From a virus: a stretch of 41,165 nt of DNA. The notes under the pieces are model-generated. The model worked only from the letters and a program-made list of their open reading frames with translations. It had not been told where the DNA came from and did no database searches. The stretch spans positions 1-41,165 of IMG/VR virus record IMGVR_UViG_3300024262_002839. One strand, written 5' to 3'. Made by a program: the position numbers and the translations under genes. Each line of letters starts with the position of its first letter. Position 1 is the first letter of the stretch. Positions 792-38,328 of this stretch are shown one piece after another.

Positions 792-2672
792 TTACTTAAC
801 TTCTTCAAAGTCTGTATCTTCAACACCTGGGTCATCACCTGGGTCATCCCCTGGTCCACCATCATCTGTTGGTGGTTGTTGTGTTTGACTATAAATTCTA
901 GTTGAAATTGTATTCCATTTAGCTGTTATAGTATCAACATCTTCTTTGATCTTATCAAAGTTTTTAGCAGAATGTGATTCTTTTAATTCACCGACCATTT
1001 TTTCTAATTCTTCTTTTTCATCACCTTCAAATTTATCACTAAATTCTTTGATTTGTTTTTCAGTATTAAAAATCATACCATCAGCTTGATTAAGTGTATC
1101 TGTTTCTTCTTTTAACTTCTTATCAGAATCAGCATTTTCTTCTGCTTCTTGTTTCATTCTTTCAATTTCAGTATCACTTAGGTTGGAAGCACCCTCAATT
1201 CTAATTGATTGTTTCTTACCTGTTCCTTTATCGTGAGCTGATACTTGAAGAATACCGTTAGCATCTACATCAAATGTAACTTCGATTTGTGGAATCCCTC
1301 TCATTGAAGGTGGAATACCATCTAAGTGAAATCTACCTAATGTTCTATTATCTTTTGCCATTGGTCTTTCACCCTGGATAACATGAATTTCTACACTTGG
1401 TTGATTATCTGATGCTGTTGAAAACACTTGTGATTTAGATGTAGGTATTGTTGTATTAGAATCAATTAATCTTGTCATTACATTACCCATTGTTTCAATC
1501 CCAACCGAAATTGGAATAACATCAAGTAAAAGAACATCATTAATTGTTCCTGTTAAAACACCACCTTGAATAGCTGCACCAACGGCAACTGCTTCATCCG
1601 GATTCACATTCTTGGATGGTTCTCTTCCAAAAATATCCTTAACTAAATCTTGTACAATCGGAATTCTTGTTGATCCACCAACTAAAATAACTTCGTTAAT
1701 ATCAGTTGCTTTATAACCTGAATCTTTCAGAGCTTTCTTACAAGGTGTTTTCAACTTTGTAAGTAGTCCATCTACCATAGATTCAAACTTAGCTTTTGTT
1801 AACGTAACAACTAAGTGTTTTGGTACACCATCAACAGGCATAATATATGGAAGATTAATTTCTGTTTGTGATGAAGATGATAATTCAATCTTAGCTTTTT
1901 CTGCAGCTTCCCTAATTCTTTGGAATGCTGTTTTATCATGTCTAAGATCAAGATTATATTCTTTTTTGAATTCATCAACAAGAAAATCTATAATCATCTC
2001 ATCAAAATTATCACCACCAAGATTTACATCACCATTGGTTGATTTAACTTCAAATACACCATCACCTAATTCAAGGATTGATATATCAAATGTTCCACCA
2101 CCAAGGTCAAAAACAGCTATTCTCTTATCACCTTCGATCTTATCTAAGCCATAAGCCAATGATGCTGCTGTTGGTTCATTAATAATTCTTTTTACATCTA
2201 GACCTGCAATTTTACCAGCTTCTTTCGTTGCTGTTCTTTCCTGGTCATTAAAATAAGCGGGAACTGTAATAACAGCATCCGTTACTTTTACACCAAGATA
2301 ATCTTCTGCAGTTTTCTTCATTTTTTGAAGAATCATTGCTGATATTTCTTGTGGTGTGTAATCCCTGTCCTTAATACGGATAACAGGCATTCCGTTTTTA
2401 GATTCGTGTACGTCAAACGGAAATTTAAGATGTTTGACATCATTATAACTTTTACCAATTAATCTTTTTATACTATAAATCGTATCAGCATTAGTTACCA
2501 TTTGTCTTTTAGCAGGTTCACCTACTTTTATTTCCCCATTTTCAAGAAAACCTATAATAGATGGGGTTGTTCTTCGTCCTTCACTATTAGCGATAACTAC
2601 TGGTACACCACCTTCAATAACTGATACACATGAATTTGTTGTTCCTAAGTCTATTCCTATAATTGCTCCCAT
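792..2672 (-). CDS. dnaK: Hsp70 chaperone DnaK
   Basis: 626 aa, close to the usual length of about 640. The ATPase domain is complete: GIDLGTTNS near residue 6, SIKRLIG with the catalytic Lys near 69, the VPAYFND motif, DLGGGTFD and VGGSTRIP. The linker reads DVLLLDV, followed by the substrate-binding domain and helical lid. The C-terminus is a Gly/Asp/Pro-rich acidic tail ending EEVK, matching the bacterial DnaK end that binds co-chaperones. No DnaJ or GrpE gene is present here, so host co-chaperones are the likely partners. It is the last gene of hsp20-csp-dnaK, 28 nt after csp, and ends at a strong terminator. A full-length Hsp70 is uncommon in phages; no residue loss is visible, so it is probably active. 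Confidence 0.97.
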
Positions 2673-2700
2673 AATTTATTTGTTTTTTTAATTTTTGAAT

Positions 2701-2892
2701 TTATACTAGTGTTACGTTAACTGCATTTAATCCTTTTTTACCATCTACTAATTCGAAGCTAACTTCGTCATCTTCATTTAGTGAATCTTCATTAATTCCA
2801 GAAATATGAACAAAATATTCATTATCTGATTCGTTGTCTTTGATGAAACCAAAACCTTTGGTTACATTAAAAAATTTTACTTTTCCTTGCAT
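2701..2892 (-). CDS. Cold-shock domain protein (CspA family)
   Basis: 63 aa forming one complete cold-shock domain. RNP1 is KGFGFI (from residue 12) and RNP2 is YFVHIS (from 26), the aromatic RNA-binding surface of this family. The start MQGKVKFFN is typical. Known members bind single-stranded RNA or DNA and melt RNA structure. It sits between hsp20 and dnaK on the same strand with gaps of 48 and 28 nt, so it is probably co-transcribed as the RNA-chaperone part of a folding operon. Confidence 0.95.
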   Translation of the reverse strand: MQGKVKFFNVTKGFGFIKDNESDNEYFVHISGINEDSLNEDDEVSFELVDGKKGLNAVNVTLV

Positions 2893-2940
2893 TTTTAATT
2901 TGTTTTAATTTTTACTCTTTACTTTTTAAATAATTAGTTC

Positions 2941-3354
2941 TTACTTTATATCTATATTTTTAACTTTTGTTGAAGTTTCCACTTCTTTTATTTTATTAAG
3001 GGTTATAGATAAAATCCCATTTTCCATTGATGCATCAATATTATCTATATCAACATCTTCAGGTAAAAAATATTTCTTTTCAAATGAAGTTTTAAAATAA
3101 TTATTTTCGTCTGTTTCTTTTATTTCGCTTGTAATAAAAATAAGTCCTTCGTTTAATTCAATCTTTATATCTTCTTTTGAAAATCCAGGTAATGATAATT
3201 CAAGTTTATATGAATTATCGTTTTCAGTAATATTTTCATTTTTATCAATAAATCTATGACCTAATGATAAATTTTCATTTCCAAAAAATTCATTTAGAAA
3301 GCTACCCATTGTTGGAAGGGTATTCCATTCTTTGTTTTTTCTAACTACTAACAT
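2941..3354 (-). CDS. Small heat-shock protein (Hsp20/alpha-crystallin)
   Basis: 137 aa. The alpha-crystallin domain runs from about residue 45 (YKLELSLPGFSKEDIKIEL) to ENGILSITL, the family's conserved A-x-x-x-NGxL strand. The C-terminus holds IDI, the IxI anchor used for oligomer assembly. Known members are ATP-independent holdases that pass clients to DnaK, which is encoded two genes downstream. It is first in the operon, behind a leader with a 13-bp inverted repeat. Small heat-shock proteins have been reported in T4-like phages. Confidence 0.95.
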   Translation of the reverse strand: MLVVRKNKEWNTLPTMGSFLNEFFGNENLSLGHRFIDKNENITENDNSYKLELSLPGFSKEDIKIELNEGLIFITSEIKETDENNYFKTSFEKKYFLPEDVDIDNIDASMENGILSITLNKIKEVETSTKVKNIDIK

Positions 3355-3432
3355 AATTTTAATATTTTATTTTTTAATGTAATTAAACATTATCACATAA
3401 ATATTATCAAATTATGTACCATTGGATTTTTA

Positions 3433-3478
3433 AGTCAATTTGTCATATATATTAATCTTTAAAACTGACAAATTGACT
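3433..3478. promoter_or_regulatory. 13-bp perfect inverted repeat upstream of the chaperone operon
   Basis: AGTCAATTTGTCA (3433-3445) and its exact reverse complement (3466-3478) are separated by 20 nt of AT-rich DNA that reads TTAATATATA on the minus strand. It lies about 80 nt before the hsp20 start and just after the rmlC stop. There is no U-tract on either side, so a plain terminator is unlikely. An operator or RNA stem controlling the chaperone operon is inferred from position only. Confidence 0.6.
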
Positions 3479-3500
3479 ATACTATTTGGTATTTGAAAAT

Positions 3501-4034
3501 CTATGACAATAATAAAGGTAACTTATTATCTTTATCTGAAACTATAATATCTTCTTTTGGTATTTTCCAATCTATATTTAATTGTGGGTCATTATACCGA
3601 ATACCACCATCTGATTCAAAGTTGTAATATTCATCACATTTATATAGTATGGTTGCATATTCACTTAATGTAGAAAAACCATGTGCAAAACCCTTTGGTA
3701 TTAAAAGTTGTTGTTTATTTTCTAATGTCAAATTAAACCCCATCCATTCACCATAAGTTCTTGAACCTGGTCTAAGATCAACTACTACATCATAAACACT
3801 ACCTTCTAATACACGAATTAATTTTGTTTGTGCATATGGTTCTTTTTGAAAATGAAGTCCTCTAATTACACCATATGACGATCTTGACTGATTATCTTGT
3901 ACAAAGTTATAATCAATACCTAAGTCCAATAGTGTTTTTATATTATAAGATTCGTAGAAATAACCTCTTTTATCACCAAATATTTTTGGTTCAAGGATAA
4001 TTAATCCATCTATATTAGTTTTAACTATATTCAT
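3501..4034 (-). CDS. rfbC: dTDP-4-dehydrorhamnose 3,5-epimerase-like (RmlC/RfbC)
   Basis: 177 aa, the usual full length. RmlC epimerases act in nucleotide-sugar synthesis (dTDP-rhamnose route). Visible family features: FGDKRGYFYESY at 19-30, the RGLHFQ motif with the catalytic His at 61, Lys 71, the cupin core PKGFAHGF at 113-120, YKCDEYY at 131-137 and the late GIRYNDP motif. All active-site positions I can place are present. No other rhamnose-pathway gene is in the window, so it may feed a host pathway or modify a phage or cell-surface glycan. It abuts the lipoprotein gene upstream, consistent with an envelope role. Confidence 0.93.
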   Translation of the reverse strand: MNIVKTNIDGLIILEPKIFGDKRGYFYESYNIKTLLDLGIDYNFVQDNQSRSSYGVIRGLHFQKEPYAQTKLIRVLEGSVYDVVVDLRPGSRTYGEWMGFNLTLENKQQLLIPKGFAHGFSTLSEYATILYKCDEYYNFESDGGIRYNDPQLNIDWKIPKEDIIVSDKDNKLPLLLS

Positions 4035-10170: not shown

Positions 10171-10689
10171 TTATTTTTTCGGTGGATAAGGATACCCACT
10201 ATCTTCTTTTATATCAACTGCTTCCGAATAATATCCATTTGATGTTCCATGCCACCTTATATCTACGTATCCTTTAATGGTAGCGAATTTATAAAATGTC
10301 CATGTACCTGATTCTGATGCAGTTGGATCATCTGCGATAACTTCTTCTGCTTTTAATAATGGTTCACCTATTAAGTCATCAAGATCACCATTAATATCAT
10401 TAATAGTTACATTTTCACAACAATCTTGTTGATGATACATTTTATATGTTTTACCGTTTTCAAACATAAACCATATTTCATCATCGGTTACTTTTCCACC
10501 ATCAATAAATTCATCATCTATTTGAAGAACTTCAATTTTTTCAATAGTTTGTCCTATTAATTCCTTGTAAGTGTTCACAGCAAGTCCTTTTTTATAACCA
10601 TTTATTATAGCTTCTATTTTTTCTCTAGGAACAGGTGTCATCTTATCCCTAATTGACTCATTTATAAAATCTTCAAATTTCGTTTTCAT
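10171..10689 (-). CDS. Tagged DUF7448-like protein
   Basis: 172 aa from the preferred start at 10689, one base after the upstream stop; an ATG four codons earlier lies inside the nuclease gene. Residues 1-20 are a clear tag: [11 protein letters not shown], then SIRDKMTP, with INE fitting the [LI]xE rule. The rest matches a second gene at 22533-22940: [29 protein letters not shown] and [20 protein letters not shown]. The YHxQDCCE core matches what I know as DUF7448; its Cys pair suggests metal or redox chemistry. Having a tagged and an untagged version in one genome suggests one acts from the virion and one is made in the cell. Confidence 0.75.
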
Positions 10690-10690
10690 A

Positions 10691-11038
10691 TTAATATTCA
10701 TGTCTTTCTGCTAATCCTTCATTGATTAGTTGTTCATTTAAATTTACTGTATTTCCATCTTCTGATTCTTTATAGAAAACTTCTGCAATCCATCTACCAT
10801 ATTTTCCTTTAGAATCTTTATATGTTTTAATAGTAATTTCTTTACCTAAGATTAATTCTCTAACCCTATCTCTTGAAATATACCCTTGTTCTTTTTCTTC
10901 CCCTCTCACTTCTGGTGTATTGATATAAGCTAATCTTAATTTTTGATCATTAAAAAATACACCAAACCCTAATTCAATATCTACCGTAATAGTATCTCCA
11001 TCGTATACTTTTGTTACTAAAGCTTTATATTCGTACAT
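10691..11038 (-). CDS. Staphylococcal-type thermonuclease (SNase family)
   Basis: 115 aa, one SNase domain. DGDT is at 13-16, the Arg of the active site at 35, NTPE at 40-43 and GRW with the second Arg at 82. These align with Asp19-Thr22, Arg35, Asp40-Glu43 and Arg87 of the S. aureus enzyme, a calcium-dependent nuclease of DNA and RNA. The calcium ligand Asp40 is Asn here, while Glu43 and both Arg are kept, so activity is plausible but metal use may differ. No signal peptide and no tag. It shares one base with the ParB-like gene upstream and lies next to the tagged DUF7448 gene. Confidence 0.9.
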
Positions 11039-11975: not shown

Positions 11976-13031
11976 TTATGAATATGGTTCAAAAGAATAT
12001 TTACCTTTAGAAACATTAAACACTTCAACCCCTAATGTTTTTTTCAAAAATTTTAATACAGCTTCATCACCACCATTTTTAAAATTTCTTATTACTAATT
12101 TTTTCATAACATCAGCACCTTTTTGGTCATAACCTTGTATTTTAAAAAGTCTATCAATTTCGGATAATCCAAAAGTAGAACCATATTCTAATAATAAACT
12201 TTCTTTAAGTAATTTATTTTTAAATTCTTTTCCTAATCTTTCTATTTCTTCTTTAGATATATCTTGTAATTCACCCATATCTCTATCAGCTTTATTATGT
12301 TGTGTTACATATTCACCAAATTCATCTTCATCTATACCCGGATTATTTTTAAGATATGTTGCAATGTAACCACACCCAAAATCACAAAAATCTTCATAAT
12401 TTTCAGTAACTAAATAATGTAAATCACCTATTAATGCTACATCACCAACTTTCCAATCTCTATCATCATCAATATCTTTTATTGATTTTCTTGGTAAATG
12501 AAATTTCAATTCTTCTTTTTCTTTTGGGGTTATGTCATCTGACATAAACATTCTTTGAATATTATCATCATCTTTTATTGATTCTTTAACTGGTTCAATT
12601 CCTTCTGGTTCAAAGTGCCAAGCTTTAATATTAAATGGTTTTTCATTACCTACATATCCTAAATCATTTTTATTTTTATGAAGTAATTGATTATATTCAT
12701 CAATAATTCTTAATAAAGTATTATATTCTTCTGGATCAGTTGTTATGAGTCTATCACGCCATTGTTTTAATTCGTGTGAGAGTGAATAATAACCATTTTC
12801 AATAAATTTAAATATGGTGTTAAAAAAAGAACCTAATATTTTTTTAGGAACATTACCTTTTCTTATTTCATTAAGGATATTTTGCATTCTTGCATATGCT
12901 GCTCTTAATAAATTGGGTTGATCTTGCATATTTTCTTTAACATACAGTAAAAAATCGTGTAATTCTTCGTTATCCTTTATTGTTAATTTATGTCTTTTTC
13001 TTTCATTAAGAAATTCTGTGTAATTTTTCAT
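11976..13031 (-). CDS. Tagged hypothetical protein
   Basis: 351 aa from the preferred ATG at 13031, seven nt after the upstream stop; an earlier in-frame start at 13061 would overlap that gene and put the tag inside. The tag is MKNYTEFLNE, with LNE fitting [LI]xE. The body is helical and charged, with no recognised domain. Around residues 275-280 is a second tag-like string, LLKESLLLEYG, with two more [LI]xE sites, so processing could also release the C-terminal part (about 75 aa). Confidence 0.72.
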   Translation of the reverse strand: MKNYTEFLNERKRHKLTIKDNEELHDFLLYVKENMQDQPNLLRAAYARMQNILNEIRKGNVPKKILGSFFNTIFKFIENGYYSLSHELKQWRDRLITTDPEEYNTLLRIIDEYNQLLHKNKNDLGYVGNEKPFNIKAWHFEPEGIEPVKESIKDDDNIQRMFMSDDITPKEKEELKFHLPRKSIKDIDDDRDWKVGDVALIGDLHYLVTENYEDFCDFGCGYIATYLKNNPGIDEDEFGEYVTQHNKADRDMGELQDISKEEIERLGKEFKNKLLKESLLLEYGSTFGLSEIDRLFKIQGYDQKGADVMKKLVIRNFKNGGDEAVLKFLKKTLGVEVFNVSKGKYSFEPYS

Positions 13032-13038
13032 ATATTTA

Positions 13039-13626
13039 TTATTGTTTTTGTATAAGATCATTTAATACATCTATATTCCAATACTTCATATCAAATAAGT
13101 CTACACCTAATCCAATAAAACATTCATATAAATCAGCGTGTATACCTTGTAATTCAGATTCAAATCGTTCTTTAATATCTTTATATAATTTTTCTTTATC
13201 AATATATTTATCATTTAAATAAAAATCATCAGCTTCATCACCACCAAAATATAAAAATGGTTCAGAAGAAAAAATATTATTTAATTCTTTATCTATTTCG
13301 GGTTTTGCATCTTTAAATATTTTATCTAAATGAAAAACTTCTGGTGGTGTACCAACACCAAGATCATATAATTCTATAAGTGAAGTAGGGTCTAATTCTT
13401 TTAAATTACTTAATCTTTCTTTTAATCTTTTCTTTTCATTAGCAAAATATTCTATTATATCTTTATCATTTTCATAAAATTTCTTTGGTATTCTATTTTT
13501 ATTGATAAATGCTATTTTATCTTCTACTGAATCCAATGAATTTAATTTATTAAATACATCTTCATCGGGTTTAGGTGTCATTGCATCCCTTAGACCTTCT
13601 TTTATAAATTGATTAAATTTTTTCAT
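13039..13626 (-). CDS. Tagged hypothetical protein
   Basis: 195 aa. The tag is among the clearest in the window: MKKFNQFIKE, GLRDAMTPKPDED, with IKE as the predicted cleavage site. The body is acidic and helical, with an Asp/Glu-rich stretch (YFGGDEADDFYLNDKY). No known domain. Its start overlaps the previous stop by 4 nt. It belongs to the run of tagged genes from 10171 to 15819, all on the minus strand. Confidence 0.75.
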   Translation of the reverse strand: MKKFNQFIKEGLRDAMTPKPDEDVFNKLNSLDSVEDKIAFINKNRIPKKFYENDKDIIEYFANEKKRLKERLSNLKELDPTSLIELYDLGVGTPPEVFHLDKIFKDAKPEIDKELNNIFSSEPFLYFGGDEADDFYLNDKYIDKEKLYKDIKERFESELQGIHADLYECFIGLGVDLFDMKYWNIDVLNDLIQKQ

Positions 13627-14144
13627 AATTTTTCAACTACCTTTTTTGAAATTTTCTGTAATTCATTTTCAAAGTCTTTTACATATGAACTTAAATCATC
13701 TTGTTCTTCATATAAAGAATCTAATTTATTTTTTAATTCTATTTTTTCATCTTTATCTAAATATGTATCATGATAAAGTTCATTTTCTATTTTTTCTATT
13801 TTATTATACATATCATAGTGTTCTTTATAATATTTATATAATCTTTCTAATTCAGAACATTCAATTCCTAAATCTTTTATCTCTTGAATATATTTATCCA
13901 TTCTTTGTTTATCTGCTTCTGATATAAACATTTTTCCATCTGCTGCTGATAACATAAAATTTTCAAAACCGAATTGTGGATACTTTTTATTTTTACCAAT
14001 GATTAAATCCGTAATCTGTTCTGATGTTATATCATTTAATGTAATATTACCGTCTTTTACTAACTTATTTATTATATCTAAAGTATTACCATATTCCTTA
14101 TTTTCATAAGATTCCTTTATATAGTTATTAAATCTTGTTATCAT
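13623..14144 (-). CDS. Tagged hypothetical coiled-coil protein
   Basis: 173 aa from the ATG at 14144; the codon before it in frame is TTG and is not needed. The start MITRFNNYIKE is the first half of the tag, with IKE as possible cleavage site, but the RDxMTP half is absent (SYENKEYG follows). Residues about 95-165 are a Lys/Glu-rich helix with heptad spacing, so a coiled coil is likely. Function unknown. Confidence 0.7.
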   Translation of the reverse strand: MITRFNNYIKESYENKEYGNTLDIINKLVKDGNITLNDITSEQITDLIIGKNKKYPQFGFENFMLSAADGKMFISEADKQRMDKYIQEIKDLGIECSELERLYKYYKEHYDMYNKIEKIENELYHDTYLDKDEKIELKNKLDSLYEEQDDLSSYVKDFENELQKISKKVVEKL

Positions 14145-14158
14145 CAATTTATCTTTTT

Positions 14159-14641
14159 TTATACTTCATCAACTTCTAATAATTCCTGATAAAGATATTG
14201 CCATATAATTATTCTTCTTGCTAATTCTGATGAACTTTCCCAATGATCATCTACATCATCATATTTTGAAAAATAACTAGCAGCTATATCACCATATTCC
14301 TGACCTATTAAACTTTGTAATAACATCATTGCTTCATCTAATGATTCTTCCCATATAACATCATCAATTTCACTTAAAATTTCTTTATGATCAATTTCCT
14401 TATCTGGTAATCTATGGTTTCTTATTCTTTTAACATAATCTATAATATCTTCATTTAGAAAAACTTCTAATTCACCCTTATAATCTTCTATTACTTCATC
14501 TGGAATATTATATTTATTAATATAATCTAATTTATATAATGTATCTAACCCATCTAATTTTTTTTTAATATCACCCAATGGTTTACCTACCATTTTATCA
14601 GTAAGTTTTTCGTTTAAGAATTCATTAAATTTTTTTATCAT
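14159..14641 (-). CDS. Tagged hypothetical protein
   Basis: 160 aa. The tag is MIKKFNEFLNE, KLTDKMVGKPLGD; LNE fits [LI]xE and the second half keeps the D-x-M spacing. The body is acidic and helical. It shows weak likeness to the tagged gene at 13039-13626 just after the tag (LDGLDTLYKLDYINKYNIP against LNSLDSVEDKIAFINKNRIP), so the two probably arose by duplication. Confidence 0.75.
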   Translation of the reverse strand: MIKKFNEFLNEKLTDKMVGKPLGDIKKKLDGLDTLYKLDYINKYNIPDEVIEDYKGELEVFLNEDIIDYVKRIRNHRLPDKEIDHKEILSEIDDVIWEESLDEAMMLLQSLIGQEYGDIAASYFSKYDDVDDHWESSSELARRIIIWQYLYQELLEVDEV

Positions 14642-15318: not shown

Positions 15319-15819
15319 TTAAATTTCTTGTGCTGGTTGTCCACCTTGTACTTGTGGTTGACCCTGTGGAACAGTTTGAGCAACTTCTTGTGCTTGAACT
15401 TGCCCTTGAACTTGCCCTTGAACTTCTTGTCCTTGGGGTGCTTCTTCAACTTGTACTTCAGGTTCTTCAACTTGTGTTTCAACTTCAGTTTCCATTGGCA
15501 TTTCTTCCTGAACTTGTACTTGTGGTTGCTGTTCAATATTTGATACAATTGATGAAGGTAAATTTTCAACAGTCATAAAAGCAGTTGATACATATTTTGT
15601 AATTTCTTCTGCAAGTTCTTGTTCTGACCATTTTTTTCTTGGGTCCTCACCTGTTTCGGCTTGTACTTTTTTAACGTAAGCATTAATCAAAGAAGTAGGG
15701 ATTTCTACTCTTGTTCTTACTTTCCAAGAATCATCAAATAATTGAGCTCCTTCTACTATTTTTTCAGTAGCACCTCTTTTAATTTCTTTGAATTCGTTAT
15801 ATTCAGTCAAATTTTTCAT
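15319..15819 (-). CDS. Protein with weak tag and Gln/Val-rich disordered tail
   Basis: 166 aa. The start MKNLTEYNEFKE resembles the tag but lacks [LI]xE. Residues 25-100 form a folded-looking part (TRVEIPTSLINAYVKKVQ). The C-terminal 65 residues are low complexity: PQVQVQEEM, then GQVQGQVQAQ, ending QPAQEI. That DNA also has long open frames on the other strand, an artefact of its repeats. It could be a scaffold or linker protein. A TATAAATA element lies 19 nt before the start. Confidence 0.7.
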   Translation of the reverse strand: MKNLTEYNEFKEIKRGATEKIVEGAQLFDDSWKVRTRVEIPTSLINAYVKKVQAETGEDPRKKWSEQELAEEITKYVSTAFMTVENLPSSIVSNIEQQPQVQVQEEMPMETEVETQVEEPEVQVEEAPQGQEVQGQVQGQVQAQEVAQTVPQGQPQVQGGQPAQEI

Positions 15820-16916: not shown

Positions 16917-16948
16917 TTTGGAAATGTCATTTATTTTTTATACTTTTG
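16917..16948 (+). promoter_or_regulatory. Host-type promoter of first T9SS cargo gene
   Basis: TTTG (16917-16920), 20 nt, TACTTTTG (16941-16948); start codon 31 nt beyond the last G. The spacer closely resembles that of the second cargo gene's promoter (GGAAATGTCATTTATT against GGAATTGTCAATTATT), so the promoter was duplicated with the gene. Confidence 0.75.
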
Positions 16949-16978: not shown

Positions 16979-17896
16979 ATGAAAAAATTATTTGGACTTT
17001 TAGCAATTATGTTCACATTTGTAATGACTTCTTTTAGTCAGAATCAAATAAATGAAACAAATTTTAATCTAATTGTAGATGGTATATCGTCTACAGAATT
17101 CTTAGTTACTTATAATCCACAAGATCAGTTCAACCCAATGGGTGCTGGTGTTCTTCTTGTTCATTTTGATAATCCATTAGAAAGTATTGATTTTCAATGT
17201 GATGGTATAATCGGTGTAAATAATATGCTAGACTATTATACTGAACCAAAATTAGGGGTTGGTATTAATATGATTAGAATAGATTATCATATGATGGGTG
17301 CAGGTGAAGTTAATATAATTGCAACAAGTTTTGATGAAGATATTTATCTTGCTACTAAATTTAATGCACAAGACACTTTAAATTCGTGGAATGATGCAAT
17401 GATAATAGGTATAGAATATGGGTTAAAAGAAGGTATTGCATCAGTTGATACAGATTCTATTTATCTTGCGGGTGTTAATTCAGTAGATACAACAATGTAT
17501 ATTAATAAAGGAATTAATTCGGTTATTATACCTGAATGTAATTTGGATGCTGCTTATTTAGAAGGTCAGATGTCTGTTAATATGGATTCTATTGATATAT
17601 TTTATAATGTTGGGTTTGCTGATGGTCAGCTTAAATCAGCACAAACTACAAGTATGAAATCAACTACACTGGATATTGGACTTAGTGCATATCCTAATCC
17701 AGTAGATAATGGAACTGATGTAACTATTGATTGTTTTGATTTCTTAAAAGTAGATGTCTATAACATATCAGGTGTGAAAATGTTTACTACTGAATCACAT
17801 TATGTTTCCACCAATAATTTAACTAAAGGTGTATATGTTTTTGTAGTATGGGATCGTAACAATAATACAGATATAACTAAAATAATAGTTAAATAA
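16979..17896 (+). CDS. Secreted protein with T9SS C-terminal sorting domain (paralog 1)
   Basis: 305 aa. The Sec signal is MKKLFGLLAIMFTFVMTSFS with cleavage probable before Gln 21. An N-terminal beta-type domain (about 25-130) is followed by short repeats with Gly-Val/Ile-x-Ser-Val-Asp (GIASVDTDSIY, GVNSVDTTMY). The last 75 residues match the type A sorting domain: AYPNPVDNG, then VDVYNISGVKMF, LTKGVYVFVV and TKIIVK. In Bacteroidota this domain directs cargo through the type IX system to the cell surface, where it is removed. A phage gene with it implies that the phage displays or secretes a protein from infected cells. A tandem paralog follows, with about the same layout. Confidence 0.88.
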   Translation: MKKLFGLLAIMFTFVMTSFSQNQINETNFNLIVDGISSTEFLVTYNPQDQFNPMGAGVLLVHFDNPLESIDFQCDGIIGVNNMLDYYTEPKLGVGINMIRIDYHMMGAGEVNIIATSFDEDIYLATKFNAQDTLNSWNDAMIIGIEYGLKEGIASVDTDSIYLAGVNSVDTTMYINKGINSVIIPECNLDAAYLEGQMSVNMDSIDIFYNVGFADGQLKSAQTTSMKSTTLDIGLSAYPNPVDNGTDVTIDCFDFLKVDVYNISGVKMFTTESHYVSTNNLTKGVYVFVVWDRNNNTDITKIIVK

Positions 17897-17928
17897 TTTG
17901 GAATTGTCAATTATTATGCATATCTTTG
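17897..17928 (+). promoter_or_regulatory. Host-type promoter of second T9SS cargo gene
   Basis: TTTG directly follows the stop of the first paralog, then 20 nt, then TATCTTTG (17921-17928), a perfect TAnnTTTG. The start codon is 46 nt downstream. Confidence 0.78.
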
Positions 17929-17974
17929 TTAAACAATTAGAAATAAACTTAGTATTAATTTAAAAATTACAATT

Positions 17975-18862
17975 ATGAAAAAATTAATGATTCTTTTAGT
18001 CGTATTGTTTGCATTTACATTGACTTCTTTTAGTCAAAAAACCGTGAATACTGCAAATTGGTATCTTTTTGTAGATAATGTTTTATCAAGTGATACTTTA
18101 TTTGATGTGACATTTAATCCTACTAATCCTGCTACTCCATCGAGTGAAGGTTTTGTTATTGTTGTTTTTAATAACAAATTATATGATAATGTTTCCGTAA
18201 GTGCTTCTATGGTTTATTATGGAATTGATATTACACCATCGTATATTGATCCAGTTAATATGAAAGGTATTGGTTGGTTTAAGATGAATTATACTGCACA
18301 AAATCCTGGTTCAGCATATATTTATGTAAATACTACATCCTATGTAGCACCTAAATATACTGCTGCTGATACTCTTTCAGCATTTAATAATGGTGAATCT
18401 TCAGTTGATATTGATTATTACTTTAATAATGGATATGATGCTGGTGTTAATGTTGGGGTTGCTTCAGTTGATACCACAATATATTTTAATAATGGCGTTG
18501 CTTCAGTAGATACATTAATATATTTTTATAATGGTCAACTTTCAATTAATATTGATTCTATTTTTGAAGTTGGATTCCTTTATGGTAAATCAACTGATGT
18601 TGTAAATATTATAGAAGATGCAACATTTAGTGTATTCCCTAATCCTGTAAACCAAGGTGATAATGTAACTGTTTCTACATCTTCTTTCACCGTTAATGTG
18701 GATGTATATAATACTATTGGACAGTTGGTACACAAGGAAAATGGTAATATTTTTTCTACTAATGGATTTGAAAAAGGACTTTATGTACTAGTTATTACTG
18801 ATGATGATGGAAATGTAATTACTGATACAAATAGAAAGACTGCAAAAATTATAGTACGATAA
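17975..18862 (+). CDS. Secreted protein with T9SS C-terminal sorting domain (paralog 2)
   Basis: 295 aa. The signal ends FTLTSFSQ like its neighbour. The N-terminal domain (WYLFVDNVLSSDTLFDVTFN) parallels paralog 1 (FNLIVDGISSTEFLVTYN). Residues about 161-186 hold a tandem repeat of 13 residues (GVASVDTTIYFNN, GVASVDTLIYFYN). The sorting domain follows: FSVFPNPVNQGDNVTV, VDVYNTIGQLVH, FEKGLYVLVI and TAKIIVR. The two genes share design and promoter but have diverged widely in sequence, so the duplication is not recent. Likely role: surface-exposed or released protein in infected cells, such as blocking receptors; this is inference. Confidence 0.88.
   Translation: MKKLMILLVVLFAFTLTSFSQKTVNTANWYLFVDNVLSSDTLFDVTFNPTNPATPSSEGFVIVVFNNKLYDNVSVSASMVYYGIDITPSYIDPVNMKGIGWFKMNYTAQNPGSAYIYVNTTSYVAPKYTAADTLSAFNNGESSVDIDYYFNNGYDAGVNVGVASVDTTIYFNNGVASVDTLIYFYNGQLSINIDSIFEVGFLYGKSTDVVNIIEDATFSVFPNPVNQGDNVTVSTSSFTVNVDVYNTIGQLVHKENGNIFSTNGFEKGLYVLVITDDDGNVITDTNRKTAKIIVR
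18455..18532 (+). repeat. 39-nt tandem repeat, two copies, in frame
   Basis: Two 39-nt units (18455-18493 and 18494-18532) encode GVASVDTTIYFNN and GVASVDTLIYFYN. They differ at few bases, so this repeat is younger than the gene duplication or is kept similar by recombination. Confidence 0.8.
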
Positions 18863-18881
18863 TAAATATCACATATAAAAC

Positions 18882-18912
18882 AAAGGGTGTTCAAAATGGA
18901 CACCCTTTTTTA
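18882..18912. terminator. Bidirectional terminator
   Basis: AAAGGGTGT pairs with ACACCCTTT, flanked by A-rich and T-rich runs. It separates the plus-strand T9SS gene from the convergent WNNG-repeat gene. Confidence 0.85.
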
Positions 18913-18914
18913 TT

Positions 18915-20690
18915 TTAATATCTTCTTCGTCTAGGATATCTTCTTCGTCTATAATTTTTACTAAAAATACCAAATTCTTTAAAAGGTTTAAAAGGTTTAT
19001 TTGTTTTAAATTTTGGATTAATATAAGTAGTAACTGCACCTGTATAAAATGTTCCATTTTTCCAATCATCACCAGAAAATGTACCATAATAAAATTTACC
19101 ATCCTGCCATTCAGAATTACCCCAACCACCGAAAGTTCCACTATTAAAAGAACCATTACGCCATATGATAGATACTGAACTTGTGTTTCCGAATTGACTT
19201 TCATTAGCTATACCATTATACCAATCAATATTAGCTACTGATACATTATTCATTGTACCATTATACCATATACCATCTAACCACCCTCTACCATTCATTA
19301 TAAATGATGACATATCAATAAATACACCATAATAAACACTACCATATTGCCACCAAGAATTTTTCATTATACCATTATAAAAATCACCATTATACCATTT
19401 AGAATCTTCAAATTCACCATTATACCATTTTCCATCAGTCCAAATTGAACCACCTGTAAATTTCCCATCATAAAAATCTCCTGTTGACCAAGTACAACCT
19501 GATACTGTTCCATCATTGAATGTACCATTAAGCCAATTCATATTTGTTATTATACCACTATTAAAAGTACCATTATTCCAATTATATTTGGTAGATGTAG
19601 AATATATAGCACCATTATTAAATATACCATTATTCCAGGTAGTATCATACATAACACCACCATTAAATATACCATTATCCCAATATGAATTATATATTAT
19701 TCCATTATTAAATATACCATTATTCCAAGTTGTTCCAGATATTTCCCCATCAAGAAATTCGCCATCATTCCAAGACAACCCATTAAATATACCATTTTTA
19801 AAACGTCCATTTACCCAAGTAGAATCACTAGGGAAAATTCCATATTCCCATGTACCATTATTCCAAGTAAGGGGTTTAAATGGGTTATTTGTAGTTCCTG
19901 TATATTCACTTCCCCATGATCCAGCATTCCAGGTAGCATTTGATGATTCAAATTCACAATTAATAAGTTTACCACCATTTATAATATATGAATCCCCTAT
20001 ATAGCAATTATATAATTCACCACCTGATATGATATTATTATTTCCTTTTATAACACAATTATTAAATACACCTGCTGTTATATTACATTCCCCTAATTGA
20101 AATATATTATCTGATAAATTTATTATAGTTAAACCTACACCATAATTATTATAAGTATAAAAAGATTCTACTTGACCTTTTGAATTAATAATAGTTTTTA
20201 ATATTAATTTTGTATTTTCTGATTTAGAATTAAAATCAATATTAGTAATTGATCCTAATGTATCAAAAAGAATTCCTTGTTTCCATTCAATATTTGCTTT
20301 ACTTAATGGTTGTGTAGATGTATCTTTTATAAGACACCCATTAATAATACCTCTATTTATTGTTGAATTTGTAATATAAACTCTTCCTATGAAACAAGTT
20401 TCCGGTGTTAAACTATTTAACGATGTTATAAATGTATCATATTTTATATCTAAAACAATTCTATTTCCTTCTTTTTTTAATAATTCATATCCAATGTTAG
20501 CATCAGTAGAACCTGTATTAACTAAACTATCTAATAATGTATATTCTGTTATTCCTGTGTTATTAACAGCAATATACAATTTATCACCTACTTCAAATTC
20601 ACCATCAAACTCTGTATAAAATGTTACTTTGTTATCGGTATTTTCTATAATTGGTAATAATTTTACTGAACTTTTATTGAAGTCACTCAT
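18915..20690 (-). CDS. WNNG-repeat protein, probable fibre or adhesin
   Basis: 591 aa. The first 250 residues are beta-rich, with no signal peptide. From about residue 250 to 555 the chain is built from short units with Trp-x-Asn-Gly-x-Phe-x-x-Gly (WNNGIFNNG, WLNGTFNDG, WYNGDFYNG), expected to wind as a beta-solenoid. The end is basic and aromatic: KNYRRRRYPRRRRY. No signal means it stays in the cytoplasm until assembly, which fits a tail fibre or other virion surface protein better than a secreted one. The repeat count may vary between relatives. It could also be a decoration or inhibitor protein. It is a single-gene unit with a terminator. Confidence 0.75.
   Translation of the reverse strand: MSDFNKSSVKLLPIIENTDNKVTFYTEFDGEFEVGDKLYIAVNNTGITEYTLLDSLVNTGSTDANIGYELLKKEGNRIVLDIKYDTFITSLNSLTPETCFIGRVYITNSTINRGIINGCLIKDTSTQPLSKANIEWKQGILFDTLGSITNIDFNSKSENTKLILKTIINSKGQVESFYTYNNYGVGLTIINLSDNIFQLGECNITAGVFNNCVIKGNNNIISGGELYNCYIGDSYIINGGKLINCEFESSNATWNAGSWGSEYTGTTNNPFKPLTWNNGTWEYGIFPSDSTWVNGRFKNGIFNGLSWNDGEFLDGEISGTTWNNGIFNNGIIYNSYWDNGIFNGGVMYDTTWNNGIFNNGAIYSTSTKYNWNNGTFNSGIITNMNWLNGTFNDGTVSGCTWSTGDFYDGKFTGGSIWTDGKWYNGEFEDSKWYNGDFYNGIMKNSWWQYGSVYYGVFIDMSSFIMNGRGWLDGIWYNGTMNNVSVANIDWYNGIANESQFGNTSSVSIIWRNGSFNSGTFGGWGNSEWQDGKFYYGTFSGDDWKNGTFYTGAVTTYINPKFKTNKPFKPFKEFGIFSKNYRRRRYPRRRRY
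19025..19945 (-). repeat. Coding repeats of the W-x-N-G type
   Basis: About twenty degenerate units of roughly 13-18 codons, each with TGG-N-AAT-GGT for Trp-x-Asn-Gly followed by a Phe/Tyr and a Gly. On the plus strand this appears as recurrent ACCATTATxCCA strings. They are similar enough to recombine. Confidence 0.75.
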
Positions 20691-20800: not shown

Positions 20801-21247
20801 ATGAAAAAATTTTTAATGTATTTAACAGTTATTGTATTTAGTATGTTCGTATTTACTTCTTGTGTTAAACCACCTGAATGTGAAACATATAATACAGGTG
20901 ATGTAATCTTTCACGACAATGGACCATCTTGGGCATGGGATGGATGTTATATTGAAGTTGATTGGAATGACGGTAGTTATAATTCAGTAACATTTTATAA
21001 TACTAAATCCTATTATGATAAAGCAGCAGGTAGGGCTGAAGTTTATATGGAATGGGAAGATGCAGATAATTATTATTGGAATTATGGGTATATCAATTTA
21101 ATACAATGTGGTACAGTTGATGCTTATTGTAATTGGAGTAAAAAGAAATCAACTGAAGTTTCTGGATTTATAATTGAAAAAAGTGGGTCAGTATTAAAAA
21201 CTGATATTACATCAAAAGAAGAATTTAGAAAAACAATCATAGAATAA
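20801..21247 (+). CDS. Lipoprotein, hypothetical
   Basis: 148 aa. The signal (residues 2-20) ends in FTSC, a standard lipobox, and an envelope position follows from it. The mature domain is rich in Trp, Tyr and Asp (SWAWDGCYIEVDWNDGSYNS, YYWNYGYINLIQCG) with four further Cys, so disulfides are possible. No family recognised. It is followed by a terminator and stands alone. Confidence 0.8.
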   Translation: MKKFLMYLTVIVFSMFVFTSCVKPPECETYNTGDVIFHDNGPSWAWDGCYIEVDWNDGSYNSVTFYNTKSYYDKAAGRAEVYMEWEDADNYYWNYGYINLIQCGTVDAYCNWSKKKSTEVSGFIIEKSGSVLKTDITSKEEFRKTIIE

Positions 21248-22116: not shown

Positions 22117-22530
22117 ATGATAGATTTGACTTCAGAATATAGGGTTTTACCAGAACACATTAGATTTTCTAAAGGAATAAAAAGTGTATGTGTATCTACT
22201 TGTTTAAATTACTTTGGTATTACTCCTAATACATATAATTATACATCTTCTTCTAAAAATAGAACAGCTTATATTAATATATTGAGGAATAGAAGTTATT
22301 CAGTTAGAAGTAGAGTAACTGAATTTAAAGTAAAAAAGTTTAAAACTACATTAACAGAATTACGATATAATATGAGAAAATCAAATTATCAACAAAATGA
22401 TTATTTCATAGTATATGTAGCTAATAAAGGTGCAGCTCATTTAATAGTTTTAAACGGTAATGGTGAAACAGTTATTGATACTGCACCAAAATGTCGATGG
22501 AGAGTGGCACAAATACACAAAGTTTTTTAG
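22117..22530 (+). CDS. Possible papain-fold cysteine peptidase-like protein
   Basis: 137 aa. Order of possible catalytic residues: Cys in GIKSVCVSTCLNYFGI (about 25-29), His in GAAHLIVLNG (about 112) and Asp in ETVIDTAP (about 122). Cys, then His on a strand, then Asp, in a short chain, is the pattern of papain-like peptidases such as C39. I recognise the pattern rather than a named family. If active it could cut a host or phage protein early, since it has a host-type promoter. Confidence 0.55.
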   Translation: MIDLTSEYRVLPEHIRFSKGIKSVCVSTCLNYFGITPNTYNYTSSSKNRTAYINILRNRSYSVRSRVTEFKVKKFKTTLTELRYNMRKSNYQQNDYFIVYVANKGAAHLIVLNGNGETVIDTAPKCRWRVAQIHKVF

Positions 22531-22532
22531 AT

Positions 22533-22940
22533 ATGGATGTAAGAGAAATAAAAGAAATTTATAATAGAATCGTTATAAGAATTGATAAGACTGATGATGA
22601 ATTATTGTTTCATTTAGATGATGGTTCACGATGGAAAATGTATCATAGACAAGATTGTTGTGAATATGTAACACTTGATGATGTGTGTGGTGATCTTAAT
22701 GATTTACTTGATAGTCCTATACTTAAATTTGAAGAAGTTTATCAATATAGTAATAAAAATGATTCTAATTCTTTTACCTGGACATTCTATAAAATAGCAA
22801 CAATAAAAGGACAAGTTGATTTAAAATGGTATGGTACAAGTAATGGGTATTATTCTGAATCAGTTAATATAGAACAAATAAAAGACCCTGACCCAATAGA
22901 AATCCAAAGAAGTAAAAAAATTAAAAATTTATTAAAATAA
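22533..22940 (+). CDS. DUF7448-like protein, untagged paralog
   Basis: 135 aa from the ATG at 22533, three bases after the previous stop; an earlier ATG at 22491 lies inside the upstream gene and adds 14 residues without likeness to the paralog. The core is shared with the tagged gene at 10171-10689: RWKMYHRQDCCEYVTLDDV, GDLNDLLDSPILK, TWTFYKIATIKGQVDLKWYG and [12 protein letters not shown]. Here the virion tag is absent. It may share a transcript with the peptidase-like gene. Confidence 0.75.
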   Translation: MDVREIKEIYNRIVIRIDKTDDELLFHLDDGSRWKMYHRQDCCEYVTLDDVCGDLNDLLDSPILKFEEVYQYSNKNDSNSFTWTFYKIATIKGQVDLKWYGTSNGYYSESVNIEQIKDPDPIEIQRSKKIKNLLK

Positions 22941-23165: not shown

Positions 23166-24137
23166 ATGAGTGAAAAAGAAAATGTTGTCAACTTATTTGA
23201 CATGGAAGCAGATGATTCTACAATGGATTTTCTGAACAAACGCAATGCAGCTGCAGATGGTATCTACAGAGCAAACCTAAAAGACGCTACAGATAAAAAC
23301 AAAGGTTATGTAGCAACAATCCGTTTCTTACCTAATGTAATGGAAGATGGTACACTTGGACAATCAGCGATTGAAAAACATGTACATTATGCAAACTTAC
23401 CAGACCATTCAGACTTACAGGGATATTATGATTCCTTAATCAATTTTGGTGAAAAATGTCCACTTACTACTTTGTATTGGAAACTTAAAAATTCCAAAAA
23501 TCAAGCAGAAGTTGAAAGAGCTGAATTAATTGGTCGTACTACTAAGTATTATTCTTATATCTTAGTTATTGAGGACGAACAGCATCCTGAATTTGAAGGC
23601 AAAATTATGATTTTCCCTTATGGTTATAAAATTAAGGAAAAGATTAATAACGAAAGAACCGGGGAAAATGCTGATAATAAGAAATGTAATGTTTTTGATC
23701 CAGCTAATGGTAAAGATTTCCGTCTTATCGTGAAAAAAGTTGGTGATTGGCCTAACTATGATTCTTCACAGTTTCGTTCAGTATCTCCACTTAAAATCTG
23801 GAATGAAGATAAAGGTGTTTTCGTTGAAACCCCTACTGAATGGGATGACGATAAAGAAAAATTCTTAATCAAGAGTGCAAAAGTTCAACAAAAAGTTATG
23901 ACTTATCTCCAAACTAAAGATGTAAATCTTGAAGATAATGCAGCTAAACCTTGGACTGAAGAAGAAAAAGTTAAAGTAGAAAAAATCATTGAAATCCTTT
24001 CGGGTCAAGATTTTAGCTTTGCTAAACAAAGTATTGATAATGCTGGAACATCTACTTCTTCAAATGAATCACTTGATGATACTTCATTAGATGAATCTGA
24101 TACAGATGATTTAGATGAATTCTTCGGTGATGACTAA
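23166..24137 (+). CDS. Single-stranded DNA-binding protein, T4 gp32-like
   Basis: 323 aa, close to the 301 of T4 gp32. The N-terminal arm is followed by a core with GYVATIRFLPN (about 47-57), the gp32-type strand. Then come HVHYANLPDHSDLQGYYDS, KCPLTTLYWKL and a second-strand region (YYSYILVIEDEQHPEFEG, KIMIFPYGYKI). The zinc ligands of T4 gp32 are not obvious. The tail is Ser/Thr-rich then very acidic (TDDLDEFFGDD), as in gp32, where it contacts replication proteins. Its long repetitive leader suggests autoregulation. Codon use is less AT-rich, fitting high expression. A clamp-loader-like gene lies two genes on. Confidence 0.85.
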   Translation: MSEKENVVNLFDMEADDSTMDFLNKRNAAADGIYRANLKDATDKNKGYVATIRFLPNVMEDGTLGQSAIEKHVHYANLPDHSDLQGYYDSLINFGEKCPLTTLYWKLKNSKNQAEVERAELIGRTTKYYSYILVIEDEQHPEFEGKIMIFPYGYKIKEKINNERTGENADNKKCNVFDPANGKDFRLIVKKVGDWPNYDSSQFRSVSPLKIWNEDKGVFVETPTEWDDDKEKFLIKSAKVQQKVMTYLQTKDVNLEDNAAKPWTEEEKVKVEKIIEILSGQDFSFAKQSIDNAGTSTSSNESLDDTSLDESDTDDLDEFFGDD

Positions 24138-28139: not shown

Positions 28140-29537
28140 ATGATAGAATTAAAAGGAAAATATAACAAAGATTGTAAAATTTTTATTGATGATGTAGAAA
28201 CTGAAGCTATTTCATTAATACAATCTATCTTAGATCAACCCGCATCTGAAGATGTTCCGGTTAGAATAATGTGTGATACACACACAGGAAAAGGGATCGT
28301 TATAGGATTCACTATGCCATTAACACATTTATTAGACCCTGCGTGGATTGGTGTTGATATAGGTTGTGGTGTTCTAATGGCTTCATTTCCAACTACTTAT
28401 AAAATGGATTTGGAAAAAATTGATATCGCTATTCGTGAAAGAGTTCCTATGGGATTCAATATTCACGAATCAAGAATATTTTCCAATATTCCTTTTGAAG
28501 AAGTTCAAAAAATAGCAGATGAATTTACTAAAAATTTCAATGAAAAATTTGGTACTTCTTATGTTGCACCAACTTATAATGAAAAGTGGTTAGATAAAAA
28601 ATTAAAAGATGTGAAGATCGACCCTTCTAAATTTTGGAATGCTATCGGTACTATGGGTGGTGGTAATCACATGATTGAAGTAGGTAAATCAGATACTTAT
28701 AACAAATATTGGGTAACTATTCATTCTGGTTCAAGAAACTTCGGTTTAAAAATTGCTGATTATTGGACAAATGTTGCTAATGGTAAAATTAAAAATGTAC
28801 CAACTGAATATAATATTGAATTAGATAATATAATTCAAAATACTATTCCTAAATCAGACATCCCTAAAAAGATGAAAGAATTAAAAGAAAAGTATGGATT
28901 TGGTGTAGATAAAAAATATCTTGAAGGTGATAATCTTATTGGATATCTTTGGGATATGATTTTTGCACAACAATATGCTATGTGGAATCGTCAAACTATG
29001 TTAGAACAAGTTAAAAAAGCACTTAAAATTAAAAATTTTGATGAAGTATTTGATACAACACATAATTATGTTAACTTTAGAGATTTTATGATTAGGAAAG
29101 GTGCTATATCATCTTATATAGGTGAAAAAATGGCTATTCCACTTAATATGCGTGATGGTGTAATGATATGTGAAGGAAAATCAAATTCTGACTTTAATTT
29201 TTCAGCACCACACGGTGCAGGTCGTTTGATGTCTAGGTCTAAAGCTAAAGAATCAGTTGATTTAAAAGACTTTCAAAAAACTATGAAGGGGGTTTACTCT
29301 ACTTCTGTTTGTAAGTCCACTTTAGATGAAGCTCCATTCGCTTACAAGTCGTCAGAAATGATTGAACAAGCGATTGAACCAACTGCTACTGTTTTGGAAA
29401 AGATTAAACCAGTTCTGAATATCAAAGATAAATCAGAAGGTATGTCTTGGAAAGAAAGAAAAGCTAAAAAGAAAAAAGACCAAGATCGTAAAAAAGAACG
29501 AAGAGATAAATCTTTTAGAAATATGAAAAGGATGTAA
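28140..29537 (+). CDS. rtcB: RNA-splicing ligase RtcB
   Basis: 465 aa. RtcB joins RNA ends carrying 2',3'-cyclic phosphate or 3'-phosphate to 5'-OH, using GTP and manganese. Visible motifs: GVDIGCGV with metal ligands D73 and C76, GGGNHMIEVG (N176, H177), IHSGSRNFG (H195), THNY (H308) and APHGAGR with the guanylylated His at 358, then DEAPFAYKS. All are intact, so it is probably active. The last 35 residues are a Lys/Arg-rich extension not needed for catalysis. Phages may use RtcB to reseal tRNAs cut by host anticodon nucleases; a CCA-adding enzyme at the right edge fits tRNA repair. The promoter may be the one at 27921. Confidence 0.97.
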   Translation: MIELKGKYNKDCKIFIDDVETEAISLIQSILDQPASEDVPVRIMCDTHTGKGIVIGFTMPLTHLLDPAWIGVDIGCGVLMASFPTTYKMDLEKIDIAIRERVPMGFNIHESRIFSNIPFEEVQKIADEFTKNFNEKFGTSYVAPTYNEKWLDKKLKDVKIDPSKFWNAIGTMGGGNHMIEVGKSDTYNKYWVTIHSGSRNFGLKIADYWTNVANGKIKNVPTEYNIELDNIIQNTIPKSDIPKKMKELKEKYGFGVDKKYLEGDNLIGYLWDMIFAQQYAMWNRQTMLEQVKKALKIKNFDEVFDTTHNYVNFRDFMIRKGAISSYIGEKMAIPLNMRDGVMICEGKSNSDFNFSAPHGAGRLMSRSKAKESVDLKDFQKTMKGVYSTSVCKSTLDEAPFAYKSSEMIEQAIEPTATVLEKIKPVLNIKDKSEGMSWKERKAKKKKDQDRKKERRDKSFRNMKRM

Positions 29538-37398: not shown

Positions 37399-37417
37399 TA
37401 AAAATAAATATAATTTA

Positions 37418-37449
37418 TTTGTATATATTAATTTTTGTTTGTATATTTG
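37418..37449 (+). promoter_or_regulatory. Host-type promoter, near-leaderless (TTTG-N20-TATATTTG)
   Basis: TTTG (37418-37421), exactly 20 nt, TATATTTG (37442-37449). The ATG at 37457 is seven bases on, so the transcript would have almost no leader. Confidence 0.68.
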
Positions 37450-37456
37450 TGGTTCA

Positions 37457-37747
37457 ATGATTAGGAAATATAAATATAGAATAAAAACAAAAGGTGAATT
37501 CCTTCTAGAATTTGGTTATACTTGGAGAAATCAAGTTAGTTGTACTTTTGTACATCAAATGGATTTTTTATTTGGATTAAAATTAGACAAAAAATTCTAT
37601 GATAAAATAGATTATATTTTTAATAATGATGATGGAATAGATTATTTTAATTATATTAACGATGGGGTAAGTTGTAATATATCAAAAGATATGATTAAAA
37701 GAATAGATATGATACCACAATATGAACCCAAAAAATTTATTTACTAA
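37457..37747 (+). CDS. Small hypothetical protein
   Basis: 96 aa from the ATG at 37457; a TTG start six codons earlier falls inside the promoter and is rejected. It starts MIRKYKYRIKTKGEFLLEFG and is basic and aromatic, with strands and helices (FLFGLKLDKKFYDKIDYIF). No family recognised. It is followed by the two-helix membrane protein gene 14 nt on. Confidence 0.68.
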   Translation: MIRKYKYRIKTKGEFLLEFGYTWRNQVSCTFVHQMDFLFGLKLDKKFYDKIDYIFNNDDGIDYFNYINDGVSCNISKDMIKRIDMIPQYEPKKFIY

Positions 37748-37761
37748 TTAAAATTAAAAAT

Positions 37762-38274
37762 ATGAATGAATTATCAATTTATAATCGTCTAAAGATAACA
37801 TACACAAAAATTCAAAAAAGAATTAATTTGATGTTTATAATTTTAGGTGGATGGGTGTTTTATACAATAATACTATTTGCTATACTTAAAGGTTCAATTT
37901 GGACATTGATTACAATTTTTACACCTTTAATTCCTATAGCATTTTTTACAATTTTATATATATCAAAGAAGTATAAATTTGCTAAAAAATATACAATCTT
38001 TTATAATAATTGGACTGACCAGGATTATTTTATAAATGAATTAAAATCAAGGATACGAAATAGAGTTCAGGATAATCCATCCACAATTAAAATTAAAAAT
38101 GCTGCTGGAAAATATATTGATGAACTAATTGATAATTATAGTGATAATAAAATGAAATTATCTGATGCTTTGTATAATGCTATTATTGAAACTAACTTAG
38201 TTACTGAAATGAATTATTATGAAAAATTTAAAAGGTTTAAGAATCAGATGAATGTTTATAGAAATCAAGTTTAA
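37762..38274 (+). CDS. Two-helix membrane protein with cytoplasmic helical domain
   Basis: 170 aa. Two membrane helices (about 23-43 and 48-68; LMFIILGGWVFYTIILFAI and LITIFTPLIPIAFFTILYI) form a hairpin, followed by a charged helical domain of about 100 residues. By charge both ends should be cytoplasmic. Function unknown. It ends at a bidirectional terminator. Confidence 0.72.
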   Translation: MNELSIYNRLKITYTKIQKRINLMFIILGGWVFYTIILFAILKGSIWTLITIFTPLIPIAFFTILYISKKYKFAKKYTIFYNNWTDQDYFINELKSRIRNRVQDNPSTIKIKNAAGKYIDELIDNYSDNKMKLSDALYNAIIETNLVTEMNYYEKFKRFKNQMNVYRNQV

Positions 38275-38297
38275 GTTTATATTCTAATTGTAATGAG

Positions 38298-38328
38298 AAA
38301 CCCTGCGTTATTTTAATGTGGGGTTTTT
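38298..38328. terminator. Bidirectional terminator between convergent genes
   Basis: AAACCC..GCGTTA pairs with TAATGTGGGGTTT (several G-U pairs), followed by a T-run on the plus side. The GU pairs mean it is stronger on one strand. Confidence 0.7.

Follow-up and report, generated by a model that had tools for sequence, protein, structure and literature searches.

Two tandem genes, both on the plus strand of a 41,165-base virus record, which was analysed over its whole length and is referred to below as the window, encode proteins built like the cargo of the type IX secretion system (T9SS). The chances appear to us about even that this pair represents T9SS-exported phage surface proteins with exchangeable heads, which most likely hinder the adsorption of competing phages. 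The features on which this reading is built are the following:

16917..16948, plus strand: Bacteroidota-type promoter TTTG-N20-TAnnTTTG of cargo gene 1, from pattern scan, 31 nt upstream of the gene
16979..17896, plus strand: cargo gene 1, 305 aa, with signal peptide, beta-rich head, repeats and T9SS sorting domain
16979..17041, plus strand: Sec signal peptide of cargo gene 1, from sequence, ending SFS/Q (Q-rule)
17042..17395 (limits approximate), plus strand: head domain of cargo gene 1, from alignment
17426..17629 (limits approximate), plus strand: GVxSVD-type repeat stalk of cargo gene 1, from sequence and alignment
17687..17893, plus strand: T9SS type A sorting domain of cargo gene 1, TIGR04183 at 33.3 bits in DNA search
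17897..17928, plus strand: Bacteroidota-type promoter of cargo gene 2, from pattern scan, 47 nt upstream of the gene
17975..18862, plus strand: cargo gene 2, 295 aa, with the same architecture as cargo gene 1
17975..18037, plus strand: Sec signal peptide of cargo gene 2, from sequence, ending SFS/Q
18038..18379, plus strand: head domain of cargo gene 2, from alignment
18380..18598, plus strand: GVASVDTxxYFNN repeat stalk of cargo gene 2, 13-residue period
18632..18859, plus strand: T9SS type A sorting domain of cargo gene 2, from DNA search, TIGR04183, PF18962 and alignment
18883..18911, no strand assigned: hairpin and T-run, terminator between convergent genes, -16.4 kcal/mol for the folded stretch
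18915..20690, minus strand: convergent gene for a 591-aa WNNG-repeat beta-solenoid protein with N-terminal barrel, from predicted structure and fold search
23166..24137, plus strand: gp32-type ssDNA-binding protein, PHROG 224 match, closest to that of the T4-like megaphages

Architecture, sorting domain and promoters of the cargo pair

The comparison of the two cargo proteins showed that they are paralogues along their full length (33% identity, E=7e-39), and the positions and features given for them in the original prediction, which were a tandem pair with an SFSQ signal, a beta-type domain, GVxSVD repeats and a C-terminal domain, were confirmed. A Sec/SPI signal peptide, consisting of MKKL, a hydrophobic core and SFS/Q, could be read from the sequence of both proteins, and both signal peptides conform to the Q-rule described for Bacteroidetes (PMC5837995). 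The head which follows is about 115 residues long. The head is predicted to be beta-rich, and the mean pLDDT of 37.6 obtained with AlphaFold2 on the cargo alignment made the model too poor for naming the fold. In Pfam and PADLOC searches the head showed no recognised enzymatic, adhesive or toxic domain and none known for receptor binding; PADLOC found nothing at all.

The assignment of the pair as T9SS cargo, which had earlier been made without database searches, was upheld by both sorting-domain families. The C-terminal parts of cargo proteins 1 and 2 matched TIGR04183 with 30.9 and 30.1 bits, respectively, against a curated cut-off of 23, and PF18962 (Por_Secre_tail) with 29.7 and 31.4 bits against a cut-off of 27; the sorting domain was also detected by a DNA-level search of the virus record. 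The domain is located at the extreme C-terminus of both proteins, where the last residues, KIIVK and KIIVR, form a basic end, and in cargo protein 2 a short insert precedes its last strand. When the family profile was compared with solved chains, it matched 8glk_D ("Endonuclease I") via the C-terminal region with E=1.3e-4, and also 8glj_D, which is a Por secretion sorting-domain protein, with E=0.015. The combination of a Sec signal with a C-terminal sorting domain is the same as in the type A cargo of Bacteroidota (TIGR04183, PF18962). The present pair differs from this cargo in being phage-encoded and in its head family, for which no cellular homologue was detected by pattern scans of genome contigs, a search insensitive to distant relatives.

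Export of the cargo pair via the T9SS is well supported by these sequence features, and we regard it as highly probable. As expected from the established knowledge of these families, Sec would carry the proteins across the inner membrane, cleavage of the signal peptide would occur before the glutamine, and the C-terminal sorting domain would direct passage through the T9SS of the host. A variable head, borne by a repeat stalk that is conserved, would then be exposed at the surface of the infected cell or set free from it. It is natural to suppose that the phage uses the host's own T9SS, which would place the cargo proteins at the cell surface.

The paired host-type promoters proposed earlier were also recovered, one upstream of each cargo gene. 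The TTTG-N20-TAnnTTTG pattern had 7 matches in the window versus about 3 expected, and the promoter is kept ahead of the single cargo gene of a sister strain (G002). On the opposite side, the hairpin terminator located 3′ of cargo gene 2 separates the unit from the convergent gene. From the promoter type, the host would be a member of the Bacteroidota and its polymerase would transcribe the pair; by themselves these promoters only suggest early expression. The strict promoter was rejected as a general mark of phage cargo, as in relatives it precedes 3 of 27 cargo genes versus 11 of 305 other ORFs.

Phage origin of the window and sorting domains in giant phages

The possibility that the locus is bacterial, which would have undermined the original prediction, was not borne out, because the gp32 gene and sister phage contigs identify the contig as phage. 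Host contamination was ruled out by gp32, by sister phage contigs with the same site, and by the empty site in a further relative (G003). Record G001 is 99.96% identical to the window across 24.8 kb and carries the same cargo pair. The nearest relatives of gp32 in the phage collection were those of LR756504, LR756501/LR756503, LR745206 and LR756502, which are genomes of 634-735 kb, with 44-51% identity, while the next best identity outside these genomes was 33%. Five genomes above 634 kb were previously placed in the Mahaphage clade, with Bacteroidetes as predicted hosts (Al-Shayeb et al. 2020, PMC7162821); the main text of that study makes no mention of the T9SS. An affinity of the window to Mahaphages is suggested by gp32 as a single marker, the clade-defining terminase and capsid not having been identified in the window. 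The window is probably a fragment of a genome of several hundred kilobases.

The search for sorting domains in related phages showed matches above the cut-off in all four complete megaphages (Mahaphages) searched, and in 17 of 50 further, larger gp32-related viral records. Among the gp32-related records of at least 200 kb they were present in 9 of 11, a count whose independence is slightly overstated since G010 may be the same as W01. No sorting domain was found in 26 short gp32-related fragments, nor in 50 cyanophage-type T4-like control records (1.82 Mb), where about 4.9 would be expected at the rate of the relatives. All 28 listed phage cargo ORFs, which include four from weaker or doubtful matches, begin with a hydrophobic leader of the export type, and in most of them Q occupies the predicted cleavage point. 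These leaders provide independent support for the C-terminal matches, because spurious matches would show none. A doubtful case is the W02 protein at 653378-654718, in which the C-terminal domain is internal. The passenger modules of the other phage cargo, which are of kinds typical for extracellular proteins, include cohesin, subtilase, laminin-G/lectin, InlB-type, Ig-like, Reg_prop propeller and Fib_succ_major domains, and one orthologous small cargo family is common to three megaphages (W03, W04 and G048; 29-35% identity). Searches for relatives of the cargo pair gave nothing convincing in INPHARED phages or plasmids. A large phage (G045) encodes, at L162 2634-4328 on the minus strand, a secreted protease of the subtilase type that carries a T9SS sorting domain.

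On these data, giant Bacteroidota phages probably alter the surface of the host cell during infection. The more far-reaching proposal, that giant T4-like Bacteroidota phages generally carry T9SS-routed surface proteins, and that here these serve an exchangeable-head, strain-specific, T9SS-dependent exclusion of competing phages, is tentative, and as a whole we consider it rather unlikely.

The statement of the original prediction that no phage system of this kind is described did not hold, as Cryophage (PMC7468147) and BACON phages (PMC6949934) already carry T9SS-tagged proteins. Cryophage, a 76-kb phage of Bacteroidetes, contains three variable T9SS-tagged genes, for which hijacking of the host T9SS and superinfection exclusion were proposed (Bellas et al. 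2020, PMC7468147). It is similar to the present case in being a Bacteroidetes phage whose variable loci encode several proteins with type A sorting domains, but it is another kind of phage, its passengers are endoglucanase, GH39 and PA14, and it has no paralogue pair with small head, stalk and anchor (PMC7468147). T9SS sorting domains were also described in BACON-carrying gut phages (de Jonge et al. 2019, PMC6949934), where they likewise lie near structural genes; the BACON domains of these phages had no Pfam match at E<=1 in the cargo pair. The Q-rule signal-peptide proteins of P. gingivalis phage are a further example of phage proteins adapted to Bacteroidota export, although no T9SS sorting domain is reported for them in the text of that paper (PMC10367356). 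As far as the open-licence literature shows, the recurrence in megaphages with a negative control, the paralogous head-stalk-anchor family and the evidence for head exchange are new. The recurrence in giant phages, the variation of presence and copy number at the locus, and the unlike evolution of head and anchor go beyond the original prediction.

Strain variation at the cargo site and the convergent gene

The cargo site differs between related strains. The sister strain G002 (gp32 91%) has one cargo gene in the same place, and G003 (gp32 73%) has none, its spanin-like gene directly adjoining the WNNG-repeat gene. The contigs of G001 and G002, which are different strains from one metagenome, both start exactly at the base matching window position 16349, which is 630 nt upstream of the cargo pair; this shared start could be an assembly break or real.

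The domain-wise divergence was measured between cargo gene 2 and the G002 gene, that is, in one strain pair. The amino acid identity and dS were 0.76 and 0.09 for the signal peptide, 0.27 and 0.97 for the head, 0.82 and 0.33 for the repeat stalk, and 0.80 and 0.47 for the sorting domain. Nine of ten neighbouring genes had dS values of 0.21-0.80 and amino acid identities of 0.62-0.94 between the window and G002. The exception was a small lipoprotein-like gene at 20801-21247 on the plus strand (30% identity between the strains, dS 1.05), which is divergent like the cargo heads. Because the dS of the head climbs along with its amino acid divergence, the simplest account for this one strain pair is that the head module was exchanged between strains by recombination, in which the head would be swapped and the stalk and sorting domain retained. 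Positive selection as the sole cause of the head divergence was set aside as the less simple reading, since dS is up together with dN in the head.

The stalk and the sorting domain had a dN/dS of about 0.3-0.4 in the same strain pair, and they look to be under purifying selection. This is different than expected if the cargo genes were morons, i.e., captured host genes without a selected phage function, which could otherwise explain why the site contains 0, 1 or 2 copies. The recurrence of the domain across megaphages, one family being common to three of them, and the lack of a cellular homologue in the pattern scans also argue against this explanation, which we consider very improbable.

The convergent WNNG-repeat protein was modelled as a confident beta-solenoid at about residues 220-460 (pLDDT mostly 85-97). 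Its N-terminal region gave weak fold matches, including phage tail, head-tail and baseplate-wedge proteins, with no PDB match at E<=0.001, and the protein is probably, judging from these models, a tail- or baseplate-associated virion protein. In W03, W04 and G048 a small cargo gene is also convergent with the gene of a giant WNNG-repeat protein, with zero or one gene between them, and these proteins align to that of the window mainly through the repeats. On the other hand, the cargo genes of W01, W02 and G006 are sited elsewhere, so that the association of cargo and WNNG genes is suggestive. Since the pair lies beside a gene for a beta-solenoid that is probably part of the baseplate or tail, the cargo proteins could also be virion-associated: after export to the periplasm or surface they would attach to progeny at lysis, as decoration or as an adhesin, and the sorting domain would serve as an Ig-like module. 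However, a cleavable Sec signal takes the cargo out of the cytoplasm, where T4-like virions are assembled, and the sorting domain is conserved with its terminal consensus kept, which makes this explanation improbable.

Possible role of the cargo pair and other genes of the window

The favoured role of the cargo pair is superinfection exclusion or receptor masking, to which we give a little less than an even chance: an altered surface of the infected cell would lead to poor adsorption of competing phages. In F. columnare, mutants defective in the T9SS or in gliding become resistant to phage (PMC9233685), which suggests that T9SS-dependent surface components affect adsorption and favours exclusion. 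Exchange of the head while the anchor stays constant also fits strain-specific interactions. Additionally, the llp gene of phage T5 is located beside the receptor-binding gene (PMC9586334), as the cargo pair abuts a probable tail or baseplate gene. T5 Llp and T1 Cor, which serve here as a working model, are likewise small exported phage proteins whose genes neighbour one for adsorption or the tail (PMC9586334), but they are lipoproteins, to which the cargo pair is unrelated, and the cargo pair has no lipobox and another export route. A lipoprotein-type exclusion protein was rejected for the pair, as neither cargo protein has a lipobox or a cysteine at the SFSQ cleavage site.

On the other hand, the head variability is also compatible with antagonism or adhesion, and the different location of cargo genes in other megaphages, together with the subtilase and lectin passengers, suggests other uses. 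The cargo proteins could then be surface or released proteins, exported by the T9SS for adhesion, aggregation or interbacterial antagonism, to the benefit of the infected cell or of progeny spread. This would be consistent with the cohesin, lectin, InlB-type, Ig and subtilase modules on other phage cargoes, and with the inter-strain competition named by Bellas et al. as an alternative for Cryophage (PMC7468147). However, a probably lytic T4-like phage would profit little from a long-term benefit to its host, and the small head contains no recognised adhesive or toxic domain. We regard this explanation as unlikely.

If the wider proposal of T9SS-routed surface proteins in giant phages is true, a secretion machine found only in the Bacteroidota lineage is used as a matter of routine by the largest known phages to reshape the surface of the cell they infect, which would account for part of the "predicted surface proteins" of huge phages. 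Uncultured phages with T9SS-bearing hosts could then be recognised by this signature, and competition between phages could be put to the test in a phylum whose exclusion mechanisms are hardly known.

Several other genes of the window and its surroundings were noted. A T4 capsid-targeting-like N-terminal motif, MKKFNEFLNE(K/S)xxD with an (I/L)xE cleavage site, was found in 7 of 60 ORFs versus 0.8 in shuffles (104-745 on the plus strand, and 10171-10701, 11976-13061, 13039-13626, 13623-14147, 14159-14641 and 15319-15819 on the minus strand), and these ORFs may possibly form a battery of packaged internal megaphage proteins. The genes at 10171-10701 (minus strand) and 22491-22940 (plus strand) are paralogous and lie on opposite strands, one of the two related sequences being YHRQDCCEYVTLDDVCGDLNDL; the window at 10.2-10.5 kb also matches the DNA of G001 and G002 at the second paralogue copy. 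Genes which are host-like by sequence (DnaK, CspA-like, Hsp20, RmlC-like epimerase and RtcB-like ligase) are located at 792-4034 (minus strand) and 28140-29537 (plus strand). In the sister record G001, just right of the window, the gene L025 16994-18325 on the minus strand (G001 36994-38325) encodes a protein that has a Q-rule signal together with a TonB-C-terminal-like sequence.
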